From positions 1-43,654 of the forward strand of contig CALEAV010000012.1 of NCBI GenBank assembly GCA_937943575.1: 43,654 nt of DNA. Reading direction: 5' to 3'. The DNA comes from an uncultured bacterium (GTDB lineage: Bacteria; Desulfobacterota; Desulfobaccia; Desulfobaccales; 0-14-0-80-60-11). The notes under the pieces are model-generated. The model worked only from the letters and a program-made list of their open reading frames with translations, was not told the origin of the DNA and did no database searches. Numbering within the stretch: position 1 is the stretch's first letter; every line of letters begins with the position of its first letter. A program made the translations under genes and the position numbers. Below are positions 8,778-32,990 of the stretch, one piece after another.

Positions 8778-10013
8778 ATGGCGGATCAGAAAGACTCCCA
8801 GCAGGCGCCGGCGCCGCCGGAGGCGGCCGCGCCTCCCTCCGCCGTCCCTCCCCCGGAGGACTGGCAGGAGTTTCCCAGCCGTTTTGCCCGCCTCTTTTTC
8901 GGGGCCCTCACCCTCCTGGTCCTGTACTATTCGTATGAGATCATCAAGCCCTACCTGGTGGACATCTTCCTGGCCCTGGTGCTGTATTTCACTGCCCGGC
9001 CGCTCTACCAGGCCCTGACCCGGCTGCTCTTCGGCATGCGGGCCCTGGCCAGCTTCCTCACCTGCCTGCTTTTGGCCCTGGTCATCCTCCTGCCGCTCTT
9101 CACTTTGGTGAGCATCATCGCCAACCAGGCCCTGGAGTTCAGCGCCTGGGTGAGCCGGGGGCTGGAGAGCGGCGCCCTGTGGCAGTACCTGACGGGCAGG
9201 GTGGCCGCCGTCAAGGAGCTGCTCCAGCGCCTCAATCTGCCCCTGCCTCCGGAGCAGTTTAAGCTGGAGGACGTGGTCAAGACGGTGCTCACCAGCGCCA
9301 GCGTCTTCATCTACACCAACGCCGTCAGCCTCCTCAAGGGCTTCACCACCTTTCTCCTGGACCTGGCCCTGGTCCTGTTTGTGGCCTTTTTCCTCTTCCT
9401 GCAGGGGGACGACTTCATCGAGGAGATCAAGAAGCTCTCGCCCCTGGATCCGCGCCACAACGAGGAGATCCTGGCGGAGATGGAGGCCACCATCAAAGCC
9501 ACCCTGTGGAGCACGGTGGTGGTGGCCTTCATCCAGGGAGCGCTGGGGGGCTTGGGCTTCTACCTCACCGGGGTGCCCCAGGCGGCCTTCTGGGGTACGG
9601 TGATGATCCCCGCCTCGGTCATCCCGGTGGTGGGCGCCGCCCTCATCTGGGTGCCGGCGGTGGGCTACCTCATCTTCCAGGGCGCCTGGACCAAGGCAGC
9701 GGGGTTGGCCCTTTACTTCATCATTTTTGTGGGGAGCATCGACAATCTGTTGAAACCCTGGCTGATGAAGGGCACCCGGCCCACCCCGGCCATCTTCATC
9801 ATGTTCAGCATTCTGGGGGGAATTTCCTATTTCGGGGTGATCGGCTTCATCATCGGCCCCCTGATCCTCTCCTTCCTGCTGTCGCTGCTGAACATCTACC
9901 GCCTCACCATCCTGGAGGCCCAGGCGGCACCGGCCCTGCAGGGCGGCCCCCCGGCCCCCCCCAAGGAGCCCGCCAGGCAACCCGCCGGCCGGCCGGGAGA
10001 TTCAAACCGCTGA
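8778..10013 (+). CDS. AI-2E family transporter (PerM/YdiK type membrane protein)
   Basis: The 411-residue protein begins with a Pro/Ala-rich cytoplasmic stretch of about 30 residues. Several membrane segments follow, a soluble loop in the middle (about residues 115-175), and a C-terminal group of helices containing the family-typical run from FIQGALGGLGFYLTGVP through to LLKPWLMKG and the GxxG-rich final helices. Members are linked to autoinducer-2 export, sodium-proton antiport or simply unknown substrates, so no substrate is assigned. The tail after the last helix is again Pro/Ala-rich. It follows the SOD gene by 91 bases on the same strand and may be co-transcribed. A strong terminator follows. 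Confidence 0.88.
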   Translation: MADQKDSQQAPAPPEAAAPPSAVPPPEDWQEFPSRFARLFFGALTLLVLYYSYEIIKPYLVDIFLALVLYFTARPLYQALTRLLFGMRALASFLTCLLLALVILLPLFTLVSIIANQALEFSAWVSRGLESGALWQYLTGRVAAVKELLQRLNLPLPPEQFKLEDVVKTVLTSASVFIYTNAVSLLKGFTTFLLDLALVLFVAFFLFLQGDDFIEEIKKLSPLDPRHNEEILAEMEATIKATLWSTVVVAFIQGALGGLGFYLTGVPQAAFWGTVMIPASVIPVVGAALIWVPAVGYLIFQGAWTKAAGLALYFIIFVGSIDNLLKPWLMKGTRPTPAIFIMFSILGGISYFGVIGFIIGPLILSFLLSLLNIYRLTILEAQAAPALQGGPPAPPKEPARQPAGRPGDSNR

Positions 10014-10100
10014 CGCCTTATCTTCATGAAGCCCCCGGAGTCTTCCTGAGGAGCACCAGGGGCGGGCTGGATTTCCTCCTTCCGCCAGCCCCGGGAGAGA

Positions 10101-10135
10101 CCGGGACGGCGAGGGGAGTCCGTCCCGGCCGTTTT
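10101..10135 (+). terminator. Rho-independent terminator after the PerM-family gene
   Basis: A perfect 9-bp stem (CCGGGACGG 10101-10109 with CCGTCCCGG 10120-10128) is followed shortly by TTTT at 10132-10135. It lies about 90 bases after the stop codon. Confidence 0.65.
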
Positions 10136-10197
10136 CCCGGGGCCGGAACGCACGGGCCCTTCCGGGCGCCCGCAAAACCGCCGCTCCCCGGAGGCAC

Positions 10198-10227
10198 AAA
10201 AAAACCCACCACCCGGGGGTGATGGGT
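10198..10227 (-). terminator. Rho-independent terminator of the SWIM gene
   Basis: Read on the minus strand, a 10-bp stem with one wobble pair (10218-10227 with 10204-10213, CCCG loop) is followed by seven T residues. It lies 40 bases after the stop of the minus-strand SWIM gene and faces the plus-strand terminator across a convergent junction. Confidence 0.85.
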
Positions 10228-10266
10228 CAGGAAAAGGCCGAAGAGCGGCCCGGTGGATAGTCGTCC

Positions 10267-11067
10267 TCAGGCGGCTCCCAGGAGCTCCTGCTTGATCTCC
10301 CTCAGATCAAACTCGCCCTGGCTGATGGCGGCCCGGCTCTCCAGCTGCTCCAGCTCCTGCTGCACCAGCTCCTTTTCCAGCTGCCGGTCTTCGTGGATGA
10401 ACTGGACGTATTCCTCGAAGAGCTCGCCTTTGAGGTCGGATGAAAAGAGGGCCTGCCCCAGACGCTCTTCCAGGGCGAGGATGTTGTCCAGGAGATAGAA
10501 GTAGATGGACCGGGCTTCGGACAGGCGGCCGCTCTGGGCCAGGCGGTCCGCCTGGGCCTGGGTGCGCCGGAAGCGCTCCTCGGCCTCGGCAATCTCCAGG
10601 GAATCCTCCAGGATTTCCTCCACCACCTGGTCCACGGCTTCCAGGATCTCGTCCAGACCCAGCTCCTCCTCCTTCAGGAGGGCCCGAGTCTCCGGCACTT
10701 TGGCGGCCAGCTCCACAATGATGTCCACCAGGTCCTTCTTGGAGTATTTTTTCAGGCGGTCCCTGAGATCGGCTTGGTGGAGGAACTTTTGGGGCTGTTG
10801 CACCCAAGCGTGAAGGAGGGCCAGGATATGGTGACAGTTTTCCCCGGCGGCAAAGATGGGGCACTGGCATTCAAAGCTGAGCTGCTCGTCCCGGAGGCGG
10901 ACCTCCACGGGATAGGGCTCCTCCTCCATCACCACGGCGTGCAGCCGCTCCGGGCTGTGGTAGGGATAAAGGACCTGCCGGTCCTGCACCAGTTCCTGGG
11001 CCCGGGCATTGGCTTCCGGGGTGCCGAGGCGTTCCAGGGTGTGGCTCTGCAGTTCGTCGAAGCGCAT
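10267..11067 (-). CDS. SWIM zinc-finger protein
   Basis: A 266-residue protein with an N-terminal SWIM finger: Cys67, Cys69, Cys78 and His80 (CQCPIFAAGENCHH), fitting CxCx(n)CxH. The rest is acidic and helical (about residues 100-266), with long heptad-like Glu/Leu/Arg stretches suggesting coiled coil. SWIM fingers bind DNA or proteins and occur beside SNF2 helicases, but no helicase is nearby, so the function is open. The start at 11067 was preferred to one 57 bases upstream because the added residues are unlike the family and because the predicted promoter -10 element would lie inside them. A terminator follows. Confidence 0.8.
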   Translation of the reverse strand: MRFDELQSHTLERLGTPEANARAQELVQDRQVLYPYHSPERLHAVVMEEEPYPVEVRLRDEQLSFECQCPIFAAGENCHHILALLHAWVQQPQKFLHQADLRDRLKKYSKKDLVDIIVELAAKVPETRALLKEEELGLDEILEAVDQVVEEILEDSLEIAEAEERFRRTQAQADRLAQSGRLSEARSIYFYLLDNILALEERLGQALFSSDLKGELFEEYVQFIHEDRQLEKELVQQELEQLESRAAISQGEFDLREIKQELLGAA

Positions 11068-11096
11068 GATATAGTGAATATTCCTTCTTTTTTTTA

Positions 11097-11124
11097 AATG
11101 TAACACATACGTCGGGGAGGGCAA
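11097..11124 (-). promoter_or_regulatory. Probable promoter of the SWIM gene
   Basis: On the minus strand TTGCCC (11124-11119) and TACATT (11102-11097) are 16 bases apart, each 4/6. An A/T-rich tract lies between this site and the ATG at 11067. Confidence 0.45.
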
Positions 11125-11163
11125 CCGTCTGAAGCCGATTTTTCAGGGTGGGGGAGAAAAAAA

Positions 11164-11826
11164 TTAGGGGGCGGACGCAGACAGGCGCGCCAGGGAATCC
11201 TCCAGGGCCCGGCGTCTGTCCTCCAGCTCAGGGGCCCGGGCCGCGGCGGGCACCCAAAAGGGGGGCCCCGCCGCATATACCAGGCGGCAGCCCGGCCAGG
11301 GGATCTCGAAGCGGTCCCAGGTATTCAGGGTGATCTTCCGGCTGGCCCGCACCGCCACCGGGATCACCGGCACCTGGGCCTCCCGGGCCAGATAAGGCAC
11401 CCCCTTCTGCACCCGCCGGGCCGGTCCCCGGGAGCCGTCGGCGATGAGGCCCACGGGATGGCCCTCCCTGAGGTGGGCCGCCAGGGCGCGCAGGGTCTGG
11501 ACCCCCCCTTTGAGACGGGAGCCGGCCGCGACCATGAACCCCAGGCCCCGGGCCACCTCGGCGATGAACTCCCCGTCCCGGCTGGGGCTGGCCATGAGGA
11601 CCGGCGGTTTGGCCGAGGGCGCCAGCCGGGGCCAGGCGAAGATGGCGCTCAACAGATGGCAGTGCCAGGCAGTGAAGATGTAGGGGCTCCCGGTCTCCAG
11701 CCAGTGAAGGGCGGAAGGGTGGGCCTTGACCTCATGGGAGCAGGCAGCCAGCAGCAGCCGGCACAGTCCCCGGGCCAGCGCCGGGGCTCCCCGCCGGAAC
11801 CAGGGATGCTCCAGGCGCAGCTTCAT
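11164..11826 (-). CDS. DUF374 lysophospholipid acyltransferase family protein
   Basis: A 220-residue protein of the DUF374 group within the PlsC-like acyltransferases. Visible landmarks are the WHCHLL segment (WH-type catalytic region), MASPSRDGEFIAEVARGLGF, and DGSRGPARRVQKGVPYLA, the last being the family's signature. Such enzymes attach acyl chains to lipid A precursors or other envelope lipids, probably at the inner membrane; the actual acceptor is unknown. Its ATG overlaps the stop of the DUF1992 gene (ATGA at 11826-11823), showing translational coupling. A T-run begins right after the stop codon. Confidence 0.83.
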   Translation of the reverse strand: MKLRLEHPWFRRGAPALARGLCRLLLAACSHEVKAHPSALHWLETGSPYIFTAWHCHLLSAIFAWPRLAPSAKPPVLMASPSRDGEFIAEVARGLGFMVAAGSRLKGGVQTLRALAAHLREGHPVGLIADGSRGPARRVQKGVPYLAREAQVPVIPVAVRASRKITLNTWDRFEIPWPGCRLVYAAGPPFWVPAAARAPELEDRRRALEDSLARLSASAP

Positions 11827-12218
11827 GGCCCGGGGCTGCCCCGGCCGGAGGCGGCCTCCAGCCGGGCGATGATCTTGGGGGTGTAGACCTCATGCTCCTC
11901 CAGAAGCGGCGAGGTCTTGCGCATCATCCTGAGTTTCATTACCAGGAAGTTGAGCTTGCGCATGTGGTGCAGCTTGGACTGCTCATCCGGCAGGGCGGAG
12001 AGCAGGTCCTGCAGCTGCAGGATCTCCTTTTTGAGCTCCAGCTCCGGGGGCAGGCAGTCGGCCATCTTCATGATGCGGTAGGCCAGGCGCAGTTCCGGGG
12101 GCACGTGGCTGTCGTCCTCCAGCTTCAGGGGGCGGCCCTTGCCGGGCAGGTTGTTGAAGGCCCCCGCCTCCATGGCCTCCAGGATCTTGTTTTCGGCGAT
12201 GCGGGCAAAGATGTCCAT
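11823..12218 (-). CDS. DUF1992 (DnaJ-homologue subfamily C member 28-like) protein
   Basis: A 131-residue protein with the DUF1992 core at its N-terminus: IAENKILEAMEAGAFNNLPGKGRPL, followed by the LAYRIMKMADCLPPELELKKEI segment. The same domain is found in eukaryotic DNAJC28, but there is no J-domain here. Function is unknown. The ATG at 12218 was chosen because GGAGAG lies three bases before it and the family begins with this sequence; the frame stays open 26 codons upstream. It is coupled by a 4-base overlap to the acyltransferase gene. Confidence 0.82.
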   Translation of the reverse strand: MDIFARIAENKILEAMEAGAFNNLPGKGRPLKLEDDSHVPPELRLAYRIMKMADCLPPELELKKEILQLQDLLSALPDEQSKLHHMRKLNFLVMKLRMMRKTSPLLEEHEVYTPKIIARLEAASGRGSPGP

Positions 12219-12366
12219 GCGCTCTCCGGCCACGGGGGGGCGATGGGCCGGGGGAGGGGTGGCTCGCCCGCCGGCTTCGATCTTCCCGTAGCGCAACCTT
12301 GATGGCTGGGAAGGGGAGTTGTCCCAGGATGCCGGGTCCGCCCCCCCTGGCTCCCCTCCCGCCGGC

Positions 12367-12837
12367 TCAATACCGCCGCTTCCGGGCCCGCTCCAGCTCC
12401 CGCTGCTCCTCCCGGCGGCGGATGGTCTCCCGCTTGTCCGCCTTCTTCTTGCCCTTGGCCAGGGCCAGCTCCACTTTGGCGTACTGGTTCTTGAAGTAGA
12501 GCTTCAGGGGGATGAGGGTGTAGCCCCGTTCCTGGAGTTTCCCCAGCAGGCGCTTCAGCTCCCGGCGATGGAGCAGAAGCTTCCGGGGGCGGTCCGGCTC
12601 GTGGTTGTCGATGCCGGCGAAAGGGTAGGGGCTGATGTGGGAGTTGAAGAGATACAGCTCGCCGTTGCGGAAGCGGGCGTAGGCGTCCTCGATGTTGGCC
12701 TTCCCCAGGCGCAGGGACTGCACCTCGGTGCCCGTCAGCACCAGGCCGGCTTCATAGAGCGCATCCACCGTGTACTCGAAGTAGGCCTTGCGGTTGCGGC
12801 AGACCAGCTTGATGTGTTCGGGCTTGATGGGCATCAT
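12367..12837 (-). CDS. smpB: SsrA-binding protein SmpB
   Basis: The 156-residue protein is a full-length SmpB. It has the oligonucleotide-binding-like barrel with KAYFEYTVDALYEAGLVLTGTEVQSLRLGKANIEDAYARF and the SHISPY segment, plus the basic C-terminal tail (KGKKKADKRETIRRREEQRELERARKRRY) that enters the ribosomal mRNA channel. SmpB delivers tmRNA to stalled ribosomes for trans-translation. No tmRNA gene is recognisable in the window. Two Met codons start the frame (12837 and 12834). A good promoter lies about 90 bases upstream, so it need not depend on ptsHI. Confidence 0.96.
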   Translation of the reverse strand: MMPIKPEHIKLVCRNRKAYFEYTVDALYEAGLVLTGTEVQSLRLGKANIEDAYARFRNGELYLFNSHISPYPFAGIDNHEPDRPRKLLLHRRELKRLLGKLQERGYTLIPLKLYFKNQYAKVELALAKGKKKADKRETIRRREEQRELERARKRRY

Positions 12838-12929
12838 CCTGACCCGGCGGCAAGGCCGGCATTTTCCTCCGGGGAGATATTCAGGCCGCAGGGGCCGGAG
12901 GCCCCGGGCCGCGCTTACGACCTCACCCC

Positions 12930-12958
12930 TTTATATCACGGCGGCCGGTTTCCCCCAA
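12930..12958 (-). promoter_or_regulatory. Promoter of smpB
   Basis: On the minus strand TTGGGG (12958-12953) and TATAAA (12935-12930) are 17 bases apart. The predicted transcript starts near 12923, giving a leader of about 86 nt. Confidence 0.6.
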
Positions 12959-13032
12959 TGGAAAGGAAAAGGGCGCCGGCCGGCCGACCTGCTCCCCCCA
13001 GGGCCGTGGGGCCCGGCGGCGCCTCCCGGCCC

Positions 13033-14811
13033 TCAGATCCCCGCCAGGGCCGAGCCGAAGCGGTAGATCTCGGGGAAGCGCTCCTTGAGAAAGAGATTGG
13101 CGAAGTCGTTGATCTCCTCCACGGAGACCATCTCCAGCACCCGGCTGGCCATGGCCTGGGCCTCGGCCAGGGTGATGGAGCGGATGACCCGCTTGATCAC
13201 CGGGATGGCCAGAGGATTCATGGAGAGCTCGGCCACCCCCAGGCCCAGGAGGATGGGGAGATGCAGGGGATCGCCGGCCATCTCCCCGCACATGGCCACC
13301 GGCACCCCCGACACCCCGGCGGCGGTGACCACCTGGAGCACCATGCGCAGGACTGCGGGGTGCAGGGGCTGATACATGGCGGCCACCTGCTTGTTGCCCC
13401 GGTCGATGGCCAAGGCGTACTGGATGAGGTCGTTGGTGCCGATGCTGAAGAAATCCACCTCGGGGGCCAGCATCTGGCACAGGGTTACCGCCGCCGGCAC
13501 CTCGATCATGGCGCCCACCGGCATCTCCTCATCGAAGGGGTGGCCCTCCCGTCTGAGCTCCCCCTTCACCTCCTCGATGAGGGCCTTGGCCTCCCGCACT
13601 TCCTGGACGCTGCTGATGAGGGGGAACATGACCCGCACCCGGCCGTACGCCGAGGCCCGGAGGATGGCCCGCAGCTGGCGGCGGAAGATGTCCCGCTCCC
13701 GGAGGCAGAAGCGGATGGCCCGGAGGCCCAGGGCCGGGTTCATCTCCGGCACATAGTCGTTGCGGTGCAGGAACTTGTCGCCGCCGATGTCCAGGGTGCG
13801 GATGGTGACCAGCCGGGGGGCCAGGGAGGCCACCACCTTGCGGTAGTCCTCGAAGAGCTCCTCCTCGGTGGGCAGGTGCCGGAGCCGGAGAAAGAGGAAT
13901 TCGGTGCGGTAAAGCCCCACGCCGTCGGCGCCGTAGCGCCCCACCAGGTGCACTTCCTCCGGCAGTTCGATGTTGGCCATCACCCGGGTGGCGAAGCCGT
14001 CGGGGGTGGTGGCGGGCTCCGCGGCGTTGGTGGTGACCTCCTCCCGGAAGGCGGCAAACTCCGCCTGGCGCCGCCGGTAGCGCTCCAGGACCCCCTGGTC
14101 GGGGTTAAGGATGATCCGGCCGGAGAGGCCGTCCAGGATGAGCTCCTCGCCGGGGGCGATCTCCTTGATGGCGTTGTCCACCCCCACCACCGCCGGGATC
14201 TCAAAGGATTGGGCCAGAATGGCGGTGTGGGAGGTGCGCCCGCCCCGCTCGGTGATGAAGCCCACCACCCCGGAGCCGGCCATCTGGGTGGTCTCCGCCG
14301 GGGAGAGGTCCCGGGCCACCAGGATGACCTTGTCCCCGGTGGGGATCAGGCGCCGGGGGCTCTGGCCGATGAGGATGCCCATGAGGCGCCGGTAGACCGA
14401 CTCCACGTCCTGGATGCGCCCCCGGATGTAGGGGTCCTCAATGCGGCTGAAGAGTTCCCGGACCCGCTCGTAGGCCCGGTGCAGGGCCCATTCGGCGTTG
14501 AGGTTCTCCTCCCGGATGAGCCTGAGGGGCTCATCATGGAGCATCTGGTCCGTGAGGATGAGGAGGTGCAGCTCCAAAAGATGGGTGTGTTCGGGGAATT
14601 CGGCGGCCACCCGGTCCCGCAGGCGGCTGAGGTCCGCCTGGGCCTGCTCCACCGCCTCCTTAAAACGGCGGACCTCCGCCTGGCGCTCCCGGTCGGTGTA
14701 GAGCAGGCGGAAGGTGGCCTGCAGGTCGCCGAAGTCGCTCACCACCCGGGCCCGGCCCACCACAATGCCGGGGGAGGCGGGGATGCCGGTGAGGACCCGG
14801 GTGGCGCTCAT
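13033..14811 (-). CDS. ptsI: Enzyme I of the PEP-dependent phosphotransferase system
   Basis: The 592-residue protein is a complete PtsI: an N-terminal HPr-binding/phosphohistidine part with the active His195 in GGRTSHTAILA, and a C-terminal PEP-binding TIM barrel containing LYRTEFLFL, the conserved NPALGLRAIRF segment and CGEMAGDP with the catalytic Cys. It takes phosphate from phosphoenolpyruvate and passes it to HPr, whose gene overlaps it by four bases (ATGA at 14811-14808). No sugar permease (EII) gene is near, so this pair may feed a regulatory branch or remote transporters. Length is slightly above the usual 570-575. Confidence 0.96.
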   Translation of the reverse strand: MSATRVLTGIPASPGIVVGRARVVSDFGDLQATFRLLYTDRERQAEVRRFKEAVEQAQADLSRLRDRVAAEFPEHTHLLELHLLILTDQMLHDEPLRLIREENLNAEWALHRAYERVRELFSRIEDPYIRGRIQDVESVYRRLMGILIGQSPRRLIPTGDKVILVARDLSPAETTQMAGSGVVGFITERGGRTSHTAILAQSFEIPAVVGVDNAIKEIAPGEELILDGLSGRIILNPDQGVLERYRRRQAEFAAFREEVTTNAAEPATTPDGFATRVMANIELPEEVHLVGRYGADGVGLYRTEFLFLRLRHLPTEEELFEDYRKVVASLAPRLVTIRTLDIGGDKFLHRNDYVPEMNPALGLRAIRFCLRERDIFRRQLRAILRASAYGRVRVMFPLISSVQEVREAKALIEEVKGELRREGHPFDEEMPVGAMIEVPAAVTLCQMLAPEVDFFSIGTNDLIQYALAIDRGNKQVAAMYQPLHPAVLRMVLQVVTAAGVSGVPVAMCGEMAGDPLHLPILLGLGVAELSMNPLAIPVIKRVIRSITLAEAQAMASRVLEMVSVEEINDFANLFLKERFPEIYRFGSALAGI

Positions 14812-15268: not shown

Positions 15269-15297
15269 TTGCGGCGGCCTCCGGGAGGGCATATAAT
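15269..15297 (+). promoter_or_regulatory. Promoter of the ClpX-like gene
   Basis: A consensus TATAAT (15292-15297) lies 17 bases after TTGCGG (15269-15274). The transcript would start near 15304, leaving a leader of about 88 nt before the GTG at 15392. Confidence 0.65.
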
Positions 15298-15391: not shown

Positions 15392-17056
15392 GTGACTGCC
15401 CACACCACGCTCCACGGGGACAGAGACTCCCGGGAGCGGTCCCGCACCGGCAAGCTCAGCCGCATCAACTTCTCCCTCAAACCGGAGGAGCTGGAGGCTT
15501 ATCTCAACGAATACGTCATCAAACAGGATGAGGCCAAAAGCATCCTGGCCACCAAGGTCTGCACCCACTTCAACCGCATCCGCCACTTCCTGGAGCGGGG
15601 CCGGGAGCCGGAGCCCGGGGTGGGGGCCATCAAGAACAACATCATCCTCATCGGCCCCACCGGGGTGGGGAAGACCTACCTGGTCAAGCTCATCGCCAAG
15701 AAGCTGGGGGTGCCCTTCGTCAAGGGGGATGCCACCAAGTTCAGCGAAACCGGCTATGTGGGCGGCGACGTGGAGGACCTGGTCCGGGACCTGGTGCACG
15801 CCGCCGATGACGACATCGAGCTGGCCCAGTACGGCATCATCTACCTGGATGAGATCGACAAGATCGCCTCGTCCCACTCCTACTGGGGGCCCGACGTCTC
15901 CCGCACCGGCGTGCAGCGGGCCCTCCTCAAGCCCATGGAGGAGACCGAGGTGGACCTCAAGGTGGCCCACGACCCGGTGAGCCAGATCCAGGCCATCGAG
16001 CATTACCGCCGCACCGGCAAAAAAGAGAAGCGCACCATCAACACCCGGCACATCCTCTTCATCGTCAGCGGCGCCTTCAACGGCCTGGACAAGATCATCA
16101 AGGAGCGCCTGGCCAAGCAGGAGATCGGCTTCGGGGTCAAGGCCACCACCAAGGAATATACCCAGAACCTCTTAAAGCAGGTGACGGCCCAGGACCTCAT
16201 CAAGTACGGGTTCGAATCGGAGTTTGTGGGCCGCCTGCCGGTGATCGCGGTGCTGGAGGAGCTCACCGCCGAGGACCTCTATGAGATTCTGGCCAACCCC
16301 AACAACCCCATCATCAACAGCAAGAAGCGGGATTTCAAGGCCTACGGCATCGACATCAAGTTCGAGGACGAGGCCCTGCGCCTGCTGGCGGAGCGGGCCG
16401 CCCGCCACAAGACCGGCGCCCGGGGCCTGGTGAGCGTCATCGAGCGGGTGCTCATCAACTTTGAAAAACGCCTGCCCTCCACCAGCATCCGGCGCCTGGT
16501 GGTCACCCCCGAGGTGGTGAAAAACCCCAAGGAGGAGCTGGAGCGGCTGCTGGCCCACCCGGATGACCCGGCCTACGAGGAGCGCTTTGAGGCGGCGGCC
16601 CGGCGGGAGCGGGAGCTTCTCAGGCAGTCCGTCCGCCGCCGGGAGCAGGAGATCCTCACCCTCTACCGCCTGCCCCTCACCGAGGCCCGGGTGGAGCTCA
16701 TCATCGACCGCTACCTGGGGCTGGACGGCGATCTCAAGGCCGCCCTGGAGGAGGTCTCCCGGCTCTTTCACGAAGTGCGCCGCTTTGAGGAGAAGTTCTA
16801 CGAGGAGCACCTCCTGGAGATCCACTTCGAGGACGAGGCCCTGGATGAAATCCTCCGCCAGGCGATGGCGGAGAACACCTCCGCCCGGCAGATCTGCCAG
16901 GGGCTGGCCAAGGACCTGGAGTATGCCCTGAAGCTGGTGCGGGACCGCACCTCCCAGGACGTCTTCCTCCTCACCCGGGAGGCCATCCAGGATCTGGACG
17001 GGTATCTCAACGAGCTGATCCGGCAGCACTACCAGAAGACCCTCTTTCGGGAGTAA
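15392..17056 (+). CDS. ClpX-like AAA+ ATPase without zinc domain, with duplicated small subdomain
   Basis: A 554-residue protein whose residues 30-375 are a ClpX-type AAA+ module: Walker A GPTGVGKT (88-95), pore loop GYVG (121-124), Walker B YLDEID (151-156), the ClpP-docking tripeptide IGF (245-247) and sensor-2 arginine in TGARGL (341-346). The N-terminal C4 zinc-binding domain of true ClpX is absent. The C-terminus is extended by about 170 residues. It contains a second, degenerate copy of the small AAA+ subdomain: FEDEAL at 324 and 479, with T-x-A-R at 341 and 496, spaced identically. It may unfold proteins for ClpP with different adaptors. The GTG start is the only plausible one. Confidence 0.85.
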   Translation: MTAHTTLHGDRDSRERSRTGKLSRINFSLKPEELEAYLNEYVIKQDEAKSILATKVCTHFNRIRHFLERGREPEPGVGAIKNNIILIGPTGVGKTYLVKLIAKKLGVPFVKGDATKFSETGYVGGDVEDLVRDLVHAADDDIELAQYGIIYLDEIDKIASSHSYWGPDVSRTGVQRALLKPMEETEVDLKVAHDPVSQIQAIEHYRRTGKKEKRTINTRHILFIVSGAFNGLDKIIKERLAKQEIGFGVKATTKEYTQNLLKQVTAQDLIKYGFESEFVGRLPVIAVLEELTAEDLYEILANPNNPIINSKKRDFKAYGIDIKFEDEALRLLAERAARHKTGARGLVSVIERVLINFEKRLPSTSIRRLVVTPEVVKNPKEELERLLAHPDDPAYEERFEAAARRERELLRQSVRRREQEILTLYRLPLTEARVELIIDRYLGLDGDLKAALEEVSRLFHEVRRFEEKFYEEHLLEIHFEDEALDEILRQAMAENTSARQICQGLAKDLEYALKLVRDRTSQDVFLLTREAIQDLDGYLNELIRQHYQKTLFRE

Positions 17057-17175: not shown

Positions 17176-18405
17176 ATGGTCGGGGTATCCAAGCTCTACT
17201 GCGGCGCCGTGGAGGCCGGGGATGTGCTGCGCTACGGGCACGGCGCCCGCCGGGCCAAGGAGCTGCCTTCCCACCTGCTGCAGTTTTCCGCCGACAAAAA
17301 GCCGGTGGTGGTGTGGAACGTCACCCGGCGCTGCAACCTGAAGTGCCTCCACTGCTATGCCCAGGCCACCGCCGGGGCGGCCCCGGATGAGCTGACCCAC
17401 GAGGAAGGTCTGGCTCTGCTCCAGGACCTGGCCGACTTCGGGGTGCCGGTGGTGCTCTTCTCCGGGGGCGAGCCCCTGATGCGGGAGGACCTCTTCGAGC
17501 TCATCGAACGGGCCGTGGCCCTCGGCATGCGGGCGGTGATCTCCACCAACGGCACCCTCATCACCCGGGAGGTGGCCGGGCGCCTCAAGACCCTGGGGCT
17601 GTCCTATGTGGGCATCAGCCTGGACGGCACCCAACCCACCCATGACCGCTTCCGGGGCCAGCCCGGGTCCTTTGCCGCGGCCATGGCGGGGGTGCGGAAC
17701 TGCCAGGAGGCGGGCCTCAAGGTGGGGCTGCGGTTCACCGTGAGCCGCCTCAACCACCGGGAGGTGCCCGCCATCTTTGATCTGGTGGAGGAATACAACA
17801 TCCCCCGCATCTGCTTCTATCACCTGGTCTACACCGGCCGGGGGAGCAGGCTTCTGGACCAGGCCCTCACCCACACCGAGACCCGGGAGCTGGTGGACCT
17901 GATCTGCGCCCGCACCCGGCGCCTCTTTGAGGCCGGCCGCCGGGTGGAGGTCCTCACGGTGGACAACCACGCCGACGGCCCCTACATCTACCTGAAGCTC
18001 CTCAGGGAAGATCCGGCCCGGGCCGCCCAGGTGCTGGAGCTGCTGCAGATGAACGAGGGCAACAACTCCGGGCGGGGCATCGGCTGCGTCAGCTGGGAGG
18101 GCTCGGTGCACGCCGACCAGTTCTGGCGGCATTATTCCTTCGGGAACGTGCGGCAGCGGCCCTTCAGCCAGATCTGGACCGACCTCTCGGAGCCGCTTCT
18201 GGCCAGGCTCAAGGACAAGAAGCGCTACGTCACCGGCCGCTGCGCCCGCTGCCGCTGGCTGGACATCTGTGCCGGCAACTTCCGGGTGCGGGCCGAGGCC
18301 GTCACCGGGGACCTGTGGGCCCCGGACCCCGCCTGTTACCTCACCGACGAGGAGATCGGCCTGCACGGCACACAAAAGGAGGGTCCAGGGAGTCCGAATC
18401 CCTGA
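17176..18405 (+). CDS. ahbC: 12,18-didecarboxysiroheme deacetylase AhbC (radical SAM/SPASM)
   Basis: The 409-residue protein has the radical SAM cluster Cys53, Cys57 and Cys60 (TRRCNLKCLHC) and a C-terminal SPASM-like cysteine set (GIGC, GRCARC, DIC, PAC). The opening, SKLYCGAVEAGDVLRYG then LPSHLLQFSADKKPVVVWN, and the segment NNSGRGIGCVSWEGSVHADQFWRHYSFGN recall AhbC of Desulfovibrio and archaea as I remember them. AhbC removes the acetate side chains of didecarboxysiroheme to give Fe-coproporphyrin III, in the siroheme-dependent heme pathway. AhbD, the paralogous last enzyme, is the main alternative. A clear AGGAG precedes the ATG. Other ahb genes are not in the window. Confidence 0.85.
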   Translation: MVGVSKLYCGAVEAGDVLRYGHGARRAKELPSHLLQFSADKKPVVVWNVTRRCNLKCLHCYAQATAGAAPDELTHEEGLALLQDLADFGVPVVLFSGGEPLMREDLFELIERAVALGMRAVISTNGTLITREVAGRLKTLGLSYVGISLDGTQPTHDRFRGQPGSFAAAMAGVRNCQEAGLKVGLRFTVSRLNHREVPAIFDLVEEYNIPRICFYHLVYTGRGSRLLDQALTHTETRELVDLICARTRRLFEAGRRVEVLTVDNHADGPYIYLKLLREDPARAAQVLELLQMNEGNNSGRGIGCVSWEGSVHADQFWRHYSFGNVRQRPFSQIWTDLSEPLLARLKDKKRYVTGRCARCRWLDICAGNFRVRAEAVTGDLWAPDPACYLTDEEIGLHGTQKEGPGSPNP

Positions 18406-32183: not shown

Positions 32184-32990
32184 ATGTCCTATGTGACCAT
32201 GAAGGAGCTGCTGGAGGCCGGGGTGCATTTCGGCCACCAGACCCGCCGCTGGAACCCCAAGATGCAGCCCTTCATCTTCGGGGCCCGAAACGGCATCCAC
32301 ATCATTGACCTGCAAAAGACCGTCCAGTATTTCAAGGTTGCCTACCATACGGTGGTGGAGAAGGTGGCCGACGGCGGCATCGTGCTCTTTGTGGGCACCA
32401 AAAAGCAGGCCATGGACGCCATCGCCGAGGAGGCCACCCGCTGCGGCATGTTCTACGTCAATCACCGCTGGCTGGGCGGCATGCTCACCAACTACGCCAC
32501 CATCGCCCGCTCCATCGACAAGCTCAAGGCCTTTGAGGCCATGAAGGAGGACGGCAGCCTGAGGCGCTTCCCCAAGAAGGAAATCCTGATGATGGAGAAG
32601 CGGGCCGCCAAGCTGGAGCGGGCCCTGGGGGGCATCAAGAACATGGGCCGACTGCCCGACCTCATCTATGTGGTGGACCCCCGCAAGGAGAACATCGCGG
32701 TGAGCGAAGCCCGGAAGATGGGCATTCCCATCGTGGCCATCGTGGATTCCAACTGCGACCCCACCATCATTGACTATCCCATTCCCGGCAACGACGACGC
32801 CATCCGGGCCATCCGGCTGCTCACCTCCCGCATCGCCGATGCCTGTATCGAGGGGGCGCGCCTGAGGGAGGAGCGTCTCCAGGGCCTGGTGGACAAGGAG
32901 GCGGCCCTGGCGGAGACGGAGCCGCCGGCAGCCTCGCCCCCTGAAGAGACGGCGGCGGCCCCGGCCGAGGAGCTGGAAGCCGAAGCCTAA
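32184..32990 (+). CDS. rpsB: 30S ribosomal protein S2
   Basis: The 268-residue protein is S2 throughout: [22 protein letters not shown] at the N-terminus, [14 protein letters not shown], and the final core segment [27 protein letters not shown]. The C-terminus is an Ala/Glu-rich tail of about 35 residues, longer than in Escherichia coli. S2 joins the small subunit late in assembly and contacts S1. AGGAGGA precedes the ATG. It leads the conserved rpsB-tsf-pyrH-frr-uppS order found across bacteria. Confidence 0.98.

Follow-up and report, generated by a model that had tools for sequence, protein, structure and literature searches.

A ClpX-like AAA+ protein with a second small subdomain, and its gene linkage to ahbC, hemB and J-domain genes in Thermodesulfobacteriota

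What does a bacterium do with a ClpX-like ATPase that has no zinc domain, is extended at its C-terminus and is encoded away from clpP? We address this question for a gene in the window, the whole 43,654-nucleotide stretch of DNA from an uncultured member of the Thermodesulfobacteriota. The original prediction, made from the sequence, had described a specialised ClpP partner or a stand-alone remodeller with a duplicated small subdomain that would gate substrates or affect how the hexamer packs.

A ClpX-type core outside the clpP-clpX locus

The gene lies on the plus strand as predicted, from a GTG start at 15392 to a stop codon ending at 17056 (15392..17056), and encodes 554 amino acids. Orthologues in two sister species are 97–98% identical, and the start region is common to both of them and to the window gene. 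Upstream, both sister species also share a candidate −10 element, TATAAT (15292..15297, plus strand), which is a sequence match only. When the protein was searched against NCBIfam profiles the closest model was ClpX, with both equivalog cut-offs failed (TIGR00382, 329.9 against 370.75; NF003745, 348.3 against 359), and the HslU cut-off was not reached (TIGR00390, 175 against 362.45). Pfam assigned AAA_2 and the ClpB_D2-small domain in two stretches.

The motor motifs are those of ClpX. The Walker A motif GPTGVGKT (residues 88–95; 15653..15676, plus strand) is identical in 77 of 79 aligned orthologues, the pore-1 loop GYVG (residues 121–124; 15752..15763, plus strand) is found in all 79, and the IGF tripeptide that docks ClpP (residues 245–247; 16124..16132, plus strand) reads [ILMV]GF in 79/79. 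Walker B, the arginine-finger motif EFVGRLP and sensor-2 TGAR (341–344) are likewise intact in the window protein, and the core motifs or close variants of them, sensor-2 GAR included, are kept in every aligned orthologue. The earlier claim that every core ClpX element is retained thus holds for the ATPase motifs, GYVG, IGF, EFVGRLP and TGAR but not for the RKH loop, in whose place stands a segment with 11 more residues. AlphaFold2 confidence (pLDDT) is poor around residues 160–280, the IGF loop included.

The window genome (2.58 Mb, 96% complete) encodes a canonical, zinc-domain ClpX adjoining clpP on contig 53. The 554-amino-acid protein is therefore not the organism's only ClpX, and its description as a specialised paralogue outside the clpP-clpX locus is borne out; the two proteins share 39% identity over the core. 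ClpP itself gave one strong match (282.5 bits), the copy next to canonical ClpX, and two weak ones (25.1 and 19.7 bits), and a dedicated second ClpP was rejected because these last two are weak. Elsewhere in the genome, contig 21 carries an HslU-like match and contig 26 encodes a ClpB-like protein.

A third ClpX-like protein is encoded on contig 8, where the gene for a 370-amino-acid ATPase overlaps that for a 264-amino-acid JAMM-motif protein (L005:413-2316, genome G000). The ATPase has neither zinc domain nor IGF loop; its partner carries the motif HSHG...D and matches Prok-JAB only at E 0.22. This pair is kept in 6/6 relatives examined (L130–L135) and may form a system in which the unfoldase works with a JAMM metalloprotease rather than with ClpP. 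A 220-amino-acid reading frame beside the pair (L005:2803-3465) had no match in NCBIfam, Pfam or PADLOC. Within the window we also observed a tRNA-Sec gene (selC, 32900-32975, minus strand), which makes selenoprotein synthesis by this organism probable.

Scanning a collection of genomes yielded 505 relatives, and the 80 best of them were retained. These 80 are mostly from metagenome bins, with isolates including Desulfosarcina alkanivorans and Desulfoluna butyratoxydans, and they span Thermodesulfobacteriota, Verrucomicrobiota, Poribacteria, KSB1, Calditrichota, Zixibacteria, Spirochaetota, Gemmatimonadota and Myxococcota. In the window's phylum the gene is present in 118 of 247 sampled genomes. 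A tree built with canonical ClpX, HslU and the JAMM-linked paralogue placed 28 family members in one group (support 86/79) and canonical ClpX in another (100/99). The JAMM-linked paralogue is possibly sister to the family (80/53, weak), and we make no claim on the deep order, because the tool cautioned of possible attraction between the long branches of HslU and ClpX. One genome, G033, may contain two copies of the gene, since the family query matches there not only the member on C483 but also a second frame (38%, 562 amino acids; L136, C444:46871-48184). By sequence, then, these proteins are a distinct and widespread family of ClpX-type AAA+ unfoldases coexisting with canonical ClpX, from which no curated NCBIfam or Pfam model separates them. 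The open-licence literature yielded no paper joining ClpX with ahbC and none describing this architecture, which is real, conserved and, as far as that literature shows, uncharacterised.

A second AAA+ small subdomain

C-terminal to the large domain, a first AAA+ small subdomain with sensor-2 TGAR (approximately residues 291–378; 16262..16525) is followed by an all-helical insert (approximately residues 379–453; 16526..16750) and a second small subdomain without sensor-2 (approximately residues 454–545; 16751..17026), all on the plus strand. Duplication had been proposed because FEDEAL and T-x-A-R occur twice, and the letters are indeed present at 324/341 and 479/496. At the sensor-2 position of the second copy, where the window protein reads TSAR, residues vary freely among orthologues. 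Because the orthologues differ so widely there and the exact echo is peculiar to the window's genus, sensor-2 of the second copy is gone and the letter match is partly luck. The T-x-A-R repeat, not being conserved, was set aside as evidence, and profile and fold tests were used instead.

Comparison of profiles for residues 285–380 and 378–554, drawn from 79 aligned sequences, gave a match of 97.8% probability (E 9.8e-13). Among the controls, 100 column shuffles gave at best E 2.8e-3, and three further core segments gave 0.03–0.09; a shallower run of the comparison gave 90% and E 1.5e-6. Set against the genome's single ClpX sequence, the C-terminal profile fell in the right register and reached no significance. 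Similarly, Pfam ClpB_D2-small aligned with the second copy in register and under its cut-off (16.2 against 21.9).

The AlphaFold2 model places the same elements in the same order in both small subdomains, with pLDDT mostly above 85. In the first copy these are helix 306–317, strand 321–324, helices 326–338 and 343–363, strand 368–371 and helix 373–377; in the second they are helix 448–473, strand 476–479, helices 481–493 and 498–520, strand 524–527 and helix 529–533. The second copy thus has the helix-strand-helix-helix-strand-helix fold of the ClpX small domain, and we regard the two as homologous. Because a fold search with the whole model spanned residues 26–396 only, the C-terminus was folded and searched alone (mean pLDDT 94.5). 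All 50 best Foldseek rows were ClpX chains (E 0.018–0.14, probability 0.87–1.00), and the 50 best VIA-align rows were all ClpX or HslU small domains (top Z 7.7, rmsd 2.2, 81 residues). With these as the best PDB matches, the predicted C-terminal fold is that of an AAA+ small domain and not an unrelated one. A Z near 7 is unconvincing by itself; with the profile match and the agreement in register added to it, the duplication that the original prediction had supposed is convincing.

The insert is long in Thermodesulfobacteriota and short in nearly all members elsewhere: the spacing between the small domains is 60–79 residues within the phylum, all helical in the model, and mostly under 20 residues outside it. 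It appears that an AAA+ small subdomain was duplicated and reused without nucleotide sensing, and that the helical insert grew later. In single-chain ClpX hexamers, a short linker connects each subunit's C-terminus to the N-terminus of its neighbour. For this reason a subdomain added at the C-terminus more likely forms a platform on the rim than a plug, and the second copy would most likely sit at the edge of the ring, where a client or an adaptor could dock on it.

Substrate entry and probable ClpP docking

As predicted, the C4 zinc domain is absent: its motif occurs in 0/79 family members, and the single PF06689 match in the genome is the canonical ClpX on the other contig. Among relatives, 36/40 genomes do contain a zinc domain. 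The N-terminus is not simply "missing", since most orthologues carry there a short predicted helix with the motif P.QKELEKELSDYLSKKYGDR that has been lost in the window's genus. We considered a frameshift that hides this helix behind ATG 15310, which has a good Shine-Dalgarno sequence and lies 82 bases upstream in another frame. This candidate was rejected: the upstream DNA of the two sister species differs by indels and contains stops, so we take this region for a leader and conclude that the helix has been lost.

The segment that replaces the RKH loop (approximately residues 181–220; 15932..16051, plus strand) is longer, with a predicted helix at 195–208 and a basic RRTGKKEKR stretch. Its length is 40 residues in 73 of the 78 orthologues measured, and the motif is absent from the window protein; in the canonical ClpX of the same genome the region spans 29 residues and includes GGRKHPQQ. 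The RKH loop is important for recognising ssrA-tagged substrate (PMC7112951). We infer that the new unfoldase does not compete for substrates that are ssrA-tagged or delivered by the zinc domain. Instead, the conserved basic helix-loop at the pore entrance would take the place of zinc domain and RKH loop, together with the second small subdomain and, in most members, the N-terminal helix. On the sequence evidence the family has rebuilt its substrate side while keeping the motor and the ClpP-docking tripeptide.

In ClpX, I268, F270 and V274 pack into ClpP, the IGF loop makes most of the contacts between the two proteins, and I268L already weakens binding in E. coli (PMC7112951). The position matching I268 is M, L or V in 23/79 members, which speaks against docking; that matching V274 is mostly hydrophobic (I, V, L, M or A in 66/79 orthologues), which speaks for it. 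The loop is not kept by default, because the JAMM-linked paralogue of the same genomes has lost it. Of the two roles first proposed, ClpP partner or stand-alone remodeller, its retention in 79/79 orthologues therefore favours the former and disfavours the latter. Most likely the protein assembles as a hexamer whose [ILMV]GF loops dock the cell's ClpP, and substrates would be unfolded through the GYVG pore.

Gene neighbourhood and likely clients

The next gene, 119 bp downstream and with AGGAG before its ATG as a good ribosome-binding site, is ahbC (17176..18405, plus strand), which encodes the radical SAM/SPASM enzyme 12,18-didecarboxysiroheme deacetylase of the siroheme-dependent heme pathway and matches TIGR04546 with 699.6 bits (cut-off 650). 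A search of the plus strand found no terminator-like site between the two genes. Among the 118 phylum genomes with the clpX-like gene, ahbC follows it in 59, on the same strand at 12–830 bp and in 23 of 31 families; in the other 59 the next gene is hemB (16), a J-domain protein gene (29), another gene (11) or a contig end (3). A tetrapyrrole gene is therefore next in 75 of the 115 genomes with readable flanks, and in the named loci the order is often clpX-like, ahbC, hemB, ahbD, ahbA. Gene and AhbC occur together in 81 genomes of this sample, with the AhbC match above the cut-off in all but one, where it falls just short; against a strict link, 33 genomes have AhbC without the gene, and in 37 the gene is present without an above-cut-off AhbC. 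The co-occurrence is significant by a Fisher test that takes no account of relatedness (odds 6.4, p 8e-12). Such neighbourhoods are association, not mechanism, and may in part reflect vertical inheritance.

Outside the phylum the picture differs, with ahb genes or hemB downstream in 0/25 loci, so heme is not the family's universal task. Within the phylum, the J-domain neighbour is often followed by LonB. At L042 the start of a J-domain protein gene (9650-10573) overlaps the clpX-like stop by 4 bases, and a LonB-like protease (10651-13140) comes next, an order that recurs in the phylum. At five further loci (L052:7436-7807, L056, L060, L092 and L100) a small stand-alone receiver-domain protein is encoded between the clpX-like gene and hemB or ahbC, and such a protein precedes hemB in 8 of the 16 hemB-type phylum genomes. 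By analogy with RssB, an adaptor for ClpX in E. coli, it is possibly a phosphorylation-controlled adaptor.

Linkage to ahbC and hemB or to the J-domain protein is the best lead to function. Taking core, entry side and neighbourhood together, we give just short of an even chance to a family of hexameric, ClpP-docked ClpX-type unfoldases with their own substrate entry, whose clients in Thermodesulfobacteriota are most likely tetrapyrrole or heme enzymes. Most likely these would be AhbC and HemB, remodelled or passed to ClpP. Since a J-domain gene can take the place of the heme gene, and loci in other phyla have no heme neighbours, the task shared by the whole family is wider than heme. A stricter version, less likely than not, is a dedicated unfoldase for siroheme-route heme synthesis, in which the duplicated subdomain is the client platform for remodelling or turning over AhbC and HemB. 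It would parallel mitochondrial ClpX, which activates ALAS by partial unfolding (PMC7077987), through a different protein and different enzymes. If the heme link is true, the gene offers a genetic handle on how sulfate reducers regulate or maintain the siroheme-dependent heme pathway, and it would suggest that control of heme synthesis by unfoldases has more than one origin. The first reading of function had recognised the specialised paralogue, the duplicated subdomain and the ClpP dock; it missed the family, the RKH replacement and the linkage to ahbC, hemB and the J-domain gene.

Alternatively, the protein could serve as an unfoldase in general stress response or quality control, together with a J-domain co-chaperone and perhaps ClpP or LonB, and ahbC and hemB would be passengers of shared transcription. 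The adjoining DnaJ/CbpA-like gene in 29/118 genomes, the LonB that often follows, the overlap at L042 and the absence of heme neighbours in other phyla speak for it, as does Myxococcus xanthus ClpX3, similar by description only, which is needed for growth at high temperature (PMC11423568). We nevertheless find it rather doubtful, given how often a tetrapyrrole gene comes next and the ahbC adjacency in 23 families. A stand-alone remodeller that promotes maturation of AhbC or HemB without ClpP, through loading of a cofactor or Fe-S cluster in the manner of mitochondrial ClpX and ALAS (PMC7077987), would agree with the genetic linkage to both enzymes and has that precedent. It is improbable in view of the docking tripeptide that all 79 members keep, though a paralogue shows it can be lost. 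A plain duplicate of ClpX that handles the same range of substrates, compatible with the core identity to the genome's ClpX, is very improbable for a protein with no zinc domain, no RKH loop, an added domain and a separate clade in all these phyla. Anti-phage defence was rejected, the only matches being weak P-loop ones (IetA, 23 bits).

The preferred reading, a ClpP-docked unfoldase with its own substrate entry, can be set beside several known systems. Like ClpX, the window protein has the AAA+ core, GYVG, the IGF loop, the arginine-finger motif and TGAR, and its fold matches 4i4l with Z 28.0 and rmsd 2.6 over 294 residues. Unlike ClpX, it lacks the zinc domain, has a replaced RKH loop, adds a second small subdomain and a helical insert, scores below the curated cut-offs and belongs to a separate clade. 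HslU shares the AAA+ core, the small-domain fold and the absence of a zinc domain; the window protein differs in having an IGF loop and scores far under the HslU cut-off. The JAMM-linked paralogue (L005) is similar in its ClpX core without zinc domain, but at 370 amino acids it has no IGF and no second small subdomain, and its gene overlaps that of a JAMM-motif protein. Compared by description only, M. xanthus ClpX3 (MXAN_2743) is also an isolated paralogue beside canonical ClpX, reported to be without N-terminal domain and RKH motif (PMC11423568). Mitochondrial ClpX with ALAS (PMC7077987) is a functional analogy only: there too a ClpX-type unfoldase is tied to heme synthesis, whereas here the enzymes are AhbC and HemB, not ALAS, and the link is through gene neighbourhood, not biochemistry.
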